Below, piece after piece: positions 9,984 through 11,128 of a DNA stretch of 11,128 nt. The position numbers were made by a program, and so were the translations under genes. The stretch's first letter is position 1, and the number at the start of each line of letters is the position of its first letter. The stretch is from Promethearchaeota archaeon (GTDB lineage Archaea; Asgardarchaeota; Lokiarchaeia; Sigynarchaeales; SOKP01): positions 1 to 11,128 of the forward strand of contig JAGXNZ010000085.1 of NCBI GenBank assembly GCA_019894655.1. Reading direction: 5' to 3'. The notes under the pieces were generated by a model. The model was not told the origin of the DNA, did not search any database, and worked only from the letters and a program-made list of their open reading frames with translations.

Positions 9984-10139
9984 ATGATGATTATGCCGCA
10001 AGGTAAAATAGGTAAAGGTCAAAGAGAGTGTAGACGATGTCATACTCATAGAGGCTTGATAAGAAGGTATGGCTTATATATATGTCGTAGATGCTTTTAC
10101 GAAATTGGAAAAGATATTGGATTTTATAGGTATGATTAA
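9984..10139 (+). CDS. rps14: Small-subunit ribosomal protein uS14 (zinc-binding, short)
   Basis: Zinc-binding protein of the small-subunit head, 51 residues. It contains the paired Cys-x-x-Cys sets of the archaeal form: CRRC (16-19) and CRRC (34-37), which chelate one zinc ion, and the GLIRRYGL segment (24-31) with a family ending near IGKDIGFYRYD. Three in-frame ATG codons lie at the start (9984, 9987, 9993), so the exact N-terminus is uncertain by up to three residues. The last one gives MPQGKIGKG, closest to usual archaeal starts. No Shine-Dalgarno sequence is seen. It lies nine bases after uL5 and before uS8, the normal archaeal order, and is easily missed because it is so short. Confidence 0.93.
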   Translation: MMIMPQGKIGKGQRECRRCHTHRGLIRRYGLYICRRCFYEIGKDIGFYRYD

Positions 10140-10155
10140 AACGATATTTTGGTAT

Positions 10156-10161
10156 GAGGTG
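10156..10161 (+). promoter_or_regulatory. Shine-Dalgarno sequence deciding the uS8 start
   Basis: GAGGTG is an exact six-base part of the archaeal consensus (GGAGGTGAT) and is six bases upstream of an ATA codon at 10168. It is one of the best such sites in this cluster. It is 27 bases from the first ATG (10189), too far to serve it, so it argues for initiation at the ATA. Confidence 0.75.
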
Positions 10162-10167
10162 TAGAAA

Positions 10168-10551
10168 ATAGCGAATACATTAGCCGATATGTGTAATAAT
10201 CTTAAGAACTCAGAAAGAGCAAGGAAGAAGGAAGTAACCATCAGTCCTGCTTCTAAATTAAACCAAATGGTTCTTAGAATCTTTCAACAACACGCATATG
10301 TTGGAGAGTTTGAAAGATATGACGATGGGAGACAAGGTAAATTCAAAGTTGCGCTATTAGGCAAAATTAATCATTGCTCGGGTTTAATGAGGCTTAATTA
10401 CAACATCTCGCAATTCGAATCACTTGAAAGAAAGCTACTACCAGCACCAGGTTTAGGAATAATCGTGTTAACTACAAATCAAGGCATTATGACCATGAAA
10501 GAAGCCGAAGAAAAACATATTGGCGGTATGACTTTATGTTATATCTACTAA
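10168..10551 (+). CDS. rps8: Small-subunit ribosomal protein uS8, apparently starting at ATA
   Basis: Primary 16S rRNA-binding protein of the central domain. Conserved segments: ANTLADMCNNLKNSE (from the second codon; matches the family's DPLADAL...IKNAE helix), VTISPASKLNQMVLRI, YVGEFERYDDGRQGKFKVALLGKIN, and the ending ending with LPAPGLGIIVLTTNQGIMT and EEKHIGGMTLCYIY. The first in-frame ATG is at 10189, which would remove seven N-terminal residues from this conserved helix. Upstream, the frame is open only back to a stop at 10162. The one plausible start there is ATA at 10168, read as Met, with GAGGTG six bases before it; that gives 127 residues, a usual length. ATA starts are rare; a base error in a true ATG is the main alternative. 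Two tandem stops (TAA, TAG) end the gene. Confidence 0.85.
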   Translation: MANTLADMCNNLKNSERARKKEVTISPASKLNQMVLRIFQQHAYVGEFERYDDGRQGKFKVALLGKINHCSGLMRLNYNISQFESLERKLLPAPGLGIIVLTTNQGIMTMKEAEEKHIGGMTLCYIY

Positions 10552-10573: not shown

Positions 10574-11128
10574 ATGGTAAAAATAGCATTTTTTAAGGAA
10601 GAACTGGAAATTCCGGAGGGTGTCACTGTTTCCCTTGACGGAAACCATCACATTAGTGTAAGTGGACCTAACGGAAAGATAACAAAGGACTTTTCGCATA
10701 TCAGAGGAATAAAGGTTTCAATTGAAGACAATCTTATGATTTTCACTACAAACTTCCCAAAAAGTGGAACCCTTGCTTTAGTTAAAACTATTATCAATCT
10801 AATTAAAAATTTAATAAATGGAGTTCAAACAAACTATAAATACATTTGTAAAATATGTTATAGTCATTTTCCATGCACGGTGGAAGTCAAACCGGATAAA
10901 ATGGAAATTCACGTTGTAAACTTCCTTGGAGAGAGAGCTCCAAGAGTTACTAAATATCTAAAAAATGTAGAAGTTAAAGTTGACGGCGAGGATGTAATAT
11001 TAACCGGCCCCGATAAAGAAACATTAGGTCAGACTGCTGCCAACATAAAAAAAGCTTGTAGAATAAGAAAGAAAGACCCAAGAGTCTTTCAAGATGGTGT
11101 ATACCTCTATAAAATTCAAAGTGGAGAC
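10574..11128 (+). CDS. rpl6: Large-subunit ribosomal protein uL6, nearly complete, cut by the window edge
   Basis: A large-subunit protein near the factor-binding site. 185 codons are open to the right edge, which is close to full length for archaeal uL6 (about 180-185). Seen are the N-terminal beta domain (EIPEGVTVSLDG, 12-23; VSGPNGKITKDF, 29-40), GVQTNYKY (83-90), YSHFPCTVEV (96-105), VVNFLGERAPRV (114-125), and the second domain with VILTGPDKETLGQTAANIKKAC (141-162), then RIRKKDPRVFQDGVY (163-177), the family's C-terminal signature. Cys92, Cys95 and Cys101 replace the more usual Met, Val and Ile positions. Purine-rich GGAG (10556-10559) and AAGG just before the ATG make a good ribosome binding site. 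Confidence 0.95.
   Translation, partial: MVKIAFFKEELEIPEGVTVSLDGNHHISVSGPNGKITKDFSHIRGIKVSIEDNLMIFTTNFPKSGTLALVKTIINLIKNLINGVQTNYKYICKICYSHFPCTVEVKPDKMEIHVVNFLGERAPRVTKYLKNVEVKVDGEDVILTGPDKETLGQTAANIKKACRIRKKDPRVFQDGVYLYKIQSGD

Follow-up and report, generated by a model that had tools for sequence, protein, structure and literature searches.

The ribosomal protein gene uS8 of one Lokiarchaeia clade seems to start at AUA, close behind a strong Shine-Dalgarno sequence, and it has company. The best explanation overall, to which we give a probability of about 0.85, is that real near-cognate starts dependent on Shine-Dalgarno sequences are in use, the uS8 AUA among them. Judged by comparison of sequences from many genomes, AUA, AUU and AUC very probably serve as start codons in an archaeal lineage close to eukaryotes, in genes for ribosomal proteins and for a fidelity factor.

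The window (the whole stretch of DNA analysed, 11,128 nucleotides) is a Lokiarchaeia spc-type ribosomal protein operon. Its nearest relative is locus L001 (uS8 identity 99%). The gene order is uS19, uL22, uS3, uL29, RNase P subunit p29, uS17, uL14, uL24, eS4, uL5, uS14, uS8 and uL6. Family-model searches in the operon covered uL5, uS14, uS8, uL6 and p29, with uS14 scoring slightly below the cut-off of its Pfam model (PF00253, 23.3 bits against 27). The remaining names (uS19, uL22, uS3, uL29, uS17, uL14, uL24 and eS4) are what we take these genes to be from their sequence and order. Located 5' of the operon (552-1673 and 1712-2452) are a beta-propeller repeat protein and a class-II glutamine amidotransferase-like protein. 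The features around the start of uS8 are as follows.

9993..10139, + strand: uS14 gene, 5' of uS8, with an ATG start in the window and its stop at 10137
10154..10171, + strand: mini-ORF ATG AGG TGT AGA AAA TAG, overlapping and out of frame, which underlies a frameshift alternative
10156..10161, + strand: Shine-Dalgarno sequence GAGGTG, conserved within the clade
10162..10164, + strand: TAG stop, in frame, closing the uS8 frame upstream
10168..10551, + strand: uS8 gene, 127 residues, the start residue and then ANTLADMCNNLK... (NCBIfam PRK04034.1, Pfam PF00410)
10168..10170, + strand: probable ATA start codon of uS8, with a homologous ATA in 12 of 55 loci
10189..10191, + strand: first in-frame ATG of uS8, the start in public gene calls, rejected as the true start
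10574..11128, + strand: uL6 gene, 3' of uS8, with an ATG start, truncated by the end of the window

The leader reads GAGGTG, TAG, AAA, ATA (10168), then GCG AAT ACA TTA GCC GAT, then ATG (10189). A gap of six bases separates GAGGTG from ATA, and the codons between ATA and ATG encode ANTLAD. From the upstream stop to the conserved N-terminus there is no ATG, GTG or TTG, an arrangement to which L054 is the exception among the loci with ATA (see below). The protein matches the archaeal model PRK04034.1 over its full length and above the cut-off (profile 4-130 of 130; PF00410 is also matched), scoring 136.8 bits when read from 10165 versus 129.2 from 10189 (cut-off 126). The first-pass annotation had described the frame stop at 10162, the GAGGTG six bases away and the ANTLAD ahead of ATG 10189, and all of this is confirmed in the sequence. 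It had also called ATA the only codon in the interval that would serve. By context that stands. ATA 10168 is the only plausible start: the frame is closed by the TAG at 10162, GAGGTG stands six bases ahead of the codon, and the codons after it evolve as coding sequence. As a statement that no other near-cognate codon can be named in the interval, it does not stand. Nevertheless, an ATA start of uS8 behind a strong Shine-Dalgarno sequence is well supported by the layout, by the homologous ATA of related loci and by codon-structured change, and we hold with high confidence that ATA 10168 is the uS8 start in this clade.

The related loci come from a single scan of a genome collection. It gave 56 loci, all titled metagenome-assembled, and 55 were used (L056 was excluded, sharing its contig with L051). 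At the codon homologous to the uS8 ATA, 31 loci have ATG, 12 have ATA and 10 have TTG, with the other two (L046 and L047) placed one codon earlier. The ATA loci (L001, L004-L012, L022 and L054) stem from several isolates and projects. GAGGTG precedes the ATA in all 12, at a spacing of six bases in 11 and of seven in L054, and the stop ahead of it is TAA in 10 and TAG in L001, with none directly upstream in L054. Could the ATA of the window simply be a misread ATG? This one-base assembly or sequencing error had been put forward as the plain alternative. However, the same ATA in 12 further loci, from different isolates, projects and assemblies, refutes it; its probability is negligible and it is rejected. 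An alignment of relatives for ATA versus ATG had been proposed as well. ATA does recur in the relatives, and the sisters L002, L003 and L051 have ATG exactly where the window has ATA.

In a quick IQ-TREE search with five neighbouring proteins, the window, the 12 ATA loci and these three sisters make up one 16-row clade (SH-aLRT 99). The near-cognate codon is kept across related genomes, being ATA in 13 of the 16 rows with the window included. On our reading of the printed tree, ATA would have been gained once and ATG regained once, in L002, L003 and L051. The smallest totals of change obtained by script are 8 for uS8 (three states), 5 for uS14 and 3 for uL15, the last of which rests on ATT coding in 12 rows, with L014, L019, L021 and L026 miscoded (in these four, an ATG or GTG in the uL15 frame precedes the codon by one to three positions).

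Public annotations of uS8 follow a different start. Calls are cut short in P0001-P0005, P0008 and P0010, and the close-relative entries P0002-P0005, P0008 and P0010 are called from the equivalent of ATG 10189, giving 120 aa. Common gene callers reject isoleucine codons as starts, and the short public calls of uS8 and aIF1 are apparently due to a start other than ATG, GTG or TTG. Taken at face value, the 120 aa entries would mean that uS8 begins internally, at ATG 10189, with the first seven residues absent. However, no Shine-Dalgarno motif stands ahead of ATG 10189, in many relatives that codon is not ATG and the start lies at the position further 5', and codons 3-7 hold NTLAD and change mostly synonymously. 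Within the 16-row clade, parsimony changes per site at codon positions 1, 2 and 3 are 1.00, 0.17 and 1.50 for codons 2-7 and 0.33, 0.17 and 1.79 for codons 8-127. The change at position 1 in codons 2-7 is largely an A/T replacement (codon 2) plus synonymous TTA/CTN exchange (codon 5), and codons 3-7 show two replacements only (T to R in L009 and A to T in L022). An internal start is hardly credible. The Shine-Dalgarno sequence has also been kept, with 1 change over the 6 sites of GAGGTG versus 48 over the 21 sites at -45 to -25 (2.29 per site), a rate that comes from an ungapped comparison and is possibly inflated by indels, L051 and L054 being excluded from the upstream sites.

The mini-ORF offers another way to reach the uS8 frame. 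Ribosomes would start at ATG 10154 (MRCRK), slip back one base (-1) on the run of A ahead of the mini-ORF stop and join the uS8 frame at ATA. The window does have the pattern ATG AGG TGT ARA AAA TAR, as do 11 of the 12 further loci with ATA. In L054 a run of seven A, not six, puts ATG AGG TGT AAA AAA in frame with ATA, so that an in-frame ATG lies five codons 5' of it, which also speaks for this route; the extra A may be genuine variation or an error in a homopolymer. However, L002 and L003 share the layout and have ATG exactly at the ATA position, the conserved bases of the mini-ORF double as the Shine-Dalgarno sequence, and the leaders of uS14, aminotransferase and aIF1 genes show similar starts with no mini-ORF. 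A frameshift is very unlikely, and initiation at the ATA itself is the reading that we carry forward.

A separate observation concerns the interior of uS8. Inserts of about 29-32 bases that carry stops occur at two nearby sites after HAY(IGE) (L051, L052, L053 and L042; G112 and G156). For the L053 insert, folding predicts a hairpin (4 bp plus 6 bp, 3-base bulge; z -2.4), a structure that suggests a small archaeal intron of the bulge-helix-bulge type. The other three folds are unconvincing, and the stretch of L051 that was folded missed part of the insert.

uS8 had been presented as a special case, which it turns out not to be, since several Lokiarchaeia genes have such starts. A strict count over the same locus set accepts an ATH start if no ATG, GTG or TTG is found in the five upstream codons. 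It gives 18 of 52 loci for uS14 (9 ATA, 8 ATT and 1 ATC), 9 of 50 for uL15 (8 ATT and 1 ATA) and, with the window excluded, 11 of 52 for uS8 (all ATA), this last count omitting three late-match loci and scoring L054 as an ordinary start. The uS14 clade consists of 18 rows, 17 of them scored, with ATG, GTG or TTG in none, and uS14 starts vary among ATA, ATT and ATC inside one clade other than that of the window. A Shine-Dalgarno-like 4-mer precedes all 38 ribosomal protein ATH starts versus 58 of 116 ordinary starts, a difference that the Fisher p of 6.6e-10 overstates because the loci are related and the counts are not independent. In L044, uL22 and uS3 have ATT at the aligned start, preceded by GAGATGG or GGTG.

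Further cases were drawn from 400 kb of one Lokiarchaeia chromosome (G010), and they extend beyond ribosomal proteins. In a pterin dehydratase (Pfam Pterin_4a, 103 bits), ATT aligns with position one of the best NCBIfam model (score 113.8, below the model cut-off of 133); among three loci with the N-terminus the start is ATT in two and ATG in one. A second case, an aminotransferase (Pfam class I and II), has LL-diaminopimelate aminotransferase as its best NCBIfam match, at 498.8 bits slightly below the cut-off of 507. A search of 30 genomes yielded 25 usable N-termini for it, with ATT in 16, ATA in 2, ATC in 2, ATG in 4 and one unclear. Eight of the 20 ATH loci have no in-frame ATG, GTG or TTG upstream, and 12 have the GTG of the Shine-Dalgarno sequence or another ordinary codon as a potential start. 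A phosphodiesterase/sulfatase-like protein provides an ATA case. Genome-wide enrichment of ATT or ATA after Shine-Dalgarno motifs was not found in these 400 kb (ATT 1.03, ATA 0.90, ATG 4.36), and ATH follows such motifs 14 times versus 10.3 for control motifs. Therefore, such starts are a minority. As a lineage-wide class in Lokiarchaeia, AUU, AUA and AUC starts led by a Shine-Dalgarno sequence are nevertheless very probable from these alignments.

How far does this extend beyond Lokiarchaeia? Among 40 further Asgard loci, 35 have a uS8 at most 50% identical to that of the window and are 'non-Loki' by that threshold. In these 35 an ordinary in-frame codon lies between the stop and the aligned part in every gene found (uS14 34/34, uS8 35/35 and uL15 21/21). 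A nearer group of five loci (uS8 56-57% identical), with uL15 found in three, likewise has ordinary codons available.

The most telling case is the gene of aIF1, a translation factor of the SUI1 family that rejects non-AUG starts, and its link with near-cognate starts is the unexpected part of the finding. The NCBI name for the protein is 'stress response translation initiation inhibitor YciH'. SUI1 is present in 199 of 227 genomes of the Asgard phylum, many of them Lokiarchaeia, with no match in some (G110, G128 and G133). Loss of aIF1 had been considered as the cause of relaxed starts, and this distribution led to its rejection.

The start of aIF1 was compared across 50 loci, of which 47 copies were kept (one is partly N and two duplicates were dropped); 46 belong to Lokiarchaeia or close kin by similarity, and L214 comes from the nearer group. 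In 42 of the 47 no ATG, GTG or TTG occurs from the upstream stop to the first Cys of the CxxC motif. The other five (L214, L247-L249 and L272) have GTG; often such codons sit inside the Shine-Dalgarno motif, and they could be the start. Counted from that first Cys, codon -6 is ATT in 41 copies and ATC in one, a set that differs in part from the 42 with no ordinary start, and in L269-L271 the ATT lies seven codons before the Cys. A subset of 40 copies starts with ATT in 39 and ATC in one after a conserved GGTTGTGA-like leader. All 11 aIF1 loci from genomes of the window's clade have ATT (L256-L258, L260-L265, L267 and L268). As a control, all 30 aIF1A loci compared have an ordinary codon close to the start of the gene; aIF1A was found in 24 of the 28 Lokiarchaeia genomes searched, and 22 of these are in the aIF1 set too. 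The Lokiarchaeia aIF1 gene thus appears to start at AUU, with a predicted N-terminus of KDDDICPICSFPK.

Some public entries already agree with this start. P0121-P0126 have the Met set at the ATT codon (MKDD...). Others are shortened to 84 or 70 residues (P0155, P0160 and P0210) or called from slightly further upstream (P0129, P0133 and P0134; MW[KR]K...IKD). From three genomes only a second, diverged copy was taken in (L247, L248 and L249, from G144, G149 and G139). There GAGGTGA abuts ATT AAA/AAG GAT, with the GTG in frame. The two aIF1 copies of G144 are 63% identical. Outside Lokiarchaeia, most of 30 aIF1 loci have ATG or GTG. Four of them (L131, L136, L138 and L140) have no ATG, GTG or TTG ahead of the aligned region and possibly start at ATA or another AUH codon behind an AGGAGG-like sequence. 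Because of these four, the habit of a near-cognate aIF1 start may be older than Lokiarchaeia.

How might such codons be read? An initiator tRNA with a UAU anticodon was one candidate. In 12 genomes an exact search for the initiator-type stem GGGCTYATAACCC found the anticodon CAT in six and TAT in none, the other six having no match, so that the six stems found give no sign of such a tRNA. ARAGORN placed a tRNA-Met at two of the six CAT-stem genomes, and a shorter tRNA pattern gave matches not resolved into tRNAs. A mechanism with the ordinary tRNA can be proposed. The initiator tRNA would tolerate a mismatch at the third base while Shine-Dalgarno pairing holds the mRNA. Starts at AUA, AUU or AUC would then initiate at a lowered rate, which aIF1 would reduce further. 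Because aIF1 itself appears to be AUU-started, its level would set its own synthesis together with that of the other genes with near-cognate starts. The result would be a start-codon regulon, in which AUU limits aIF1 and AUH codons tie uS8, uS14, uL15 and some metabolic genes to the amount of free aIF1 relative to small subunits. This regulon is a tentative proposal, and a regulatory role of aIF1 on these starts is likewise conceivable rather than probable. The first-pass annotation had suggested that the ATA could throttle uS8 or couple it to initiation-factor level, and the apparent ATT start of aIF1 lends the coupling idea some indirect, unforeseen support.

What if the same starts are used and nothing is regulated? 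A strong Shine-Dalgarno sequence might simply let AUA pass, with the third base free to drift and uS8 output set elsewhere. The drift of uS14 among ATA, ATT and ATC in one clade fits this, as do the return of uS8 to ATG and the Shine-Dalgarno-like motif before all 38 ribosomal protein cases. Third bases of codons 2-6 of the aIF1 gene are identical in 37, 28, 27, 17 and 35 of 40 copies, compared with 39 of 40 for the start codon. None of the neighbouring third bases is thus better conserved than that of ATT, yet the exact codon stands out only moderately, and because codons 2 and 6 are well kept too, ATT need not be specially selected. On the other hand, AUG is normally favoured, and yet these starts persist, with no ordinary codon in any of the 17 scored rows of the uS14 clade or in 42 of the 47 aIF1 copies. 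We put neutral tolerance at about even odds, which makes it a likelier single reading than regulation by aIF1. Both share the main reading, that the near-cognate starts are real and Shine-Dalgarno-dependent.

Precedent in the literature is sparse. Among the matches listed, titles and abstract openings make no mention of AUH starts for Lokiarchaeia or of aIF1 starting at AUU, preprints and most subscription papers being outside the scope. Within those limits, the Asgard precedent in print is a single ATT start, that of the Kariarchaeaceae tubulin AtubA, proposed from a too-short annotation and a plausible ribosome-binding site and called rare (PMC13394414). Like the cases described here, it is an Asgard example of an ATT start behind a plausible ribosome-binding site. 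However, it is one gene from another Asgard group, and the passage that describes it does not mention conservation across a clade, ribosomal proteins or aIF1. Another study describes Shine-Dalgarno sequences as rare in Lokiarchaea (PMC12993045).

The familiar GTG and TTG starts of archaea are similar in being non-AUG and often accompanied by a Shine-Dalgarno sequence, and uS8 itself has TTG in 10 of the 55 loci. They alter the first base, whereas the Lokiarchaeia cases alter the third and arrive at an isoleucine codon. Another parallel is the classical one of bacterial infC, the gene for IF3, which has an AUU start with autocontrol. The AUU start and the autocontrol were reportedly described in 1987, by Butler and by Brombach and Pon. 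The likeness is that the gene of a factor that rejects poor start codons bears AUU itself, and in Lokiarchaeia that gene would be aIF1; on sequence comparison a near-cognate start on a fidelity factor's own gene is found for aIF1 and not for uS8. The difference is that uS8, uS14 and uL15 are ribosomal proteins, not a fidelity factor, and that for aIF1 such feedback is a proposal.

The folds of aIF1 and IF3 suggest no common ancestor, according to a review (PMC7531240). In a Sulfolobus solfataricus system, the destabilising effect of aIF1 was specific to a non-AUG complex (PMC6237735). In eukaryotes, eIF1 restrains its own production because the AUG of its gene stands in a poor context (Ivanov 2010, cited in PMC6237735). 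The comparison with eIF1 is between homologues whose genes each carry a weak start site. However, eukaryotes keep AUG and weaken the context, whereas Lokiarchaeia alter the codon. If aIF1 does control these starts, a weak start site on the gene of a fidelity factor would have arisen independently in all three domains, and the evolution of start-codon stringency would become directly testable. The regulon, if real, would be an archaeal invention parallel to IF3 and infC in bacteria and to eIF1 in eukaryotes.
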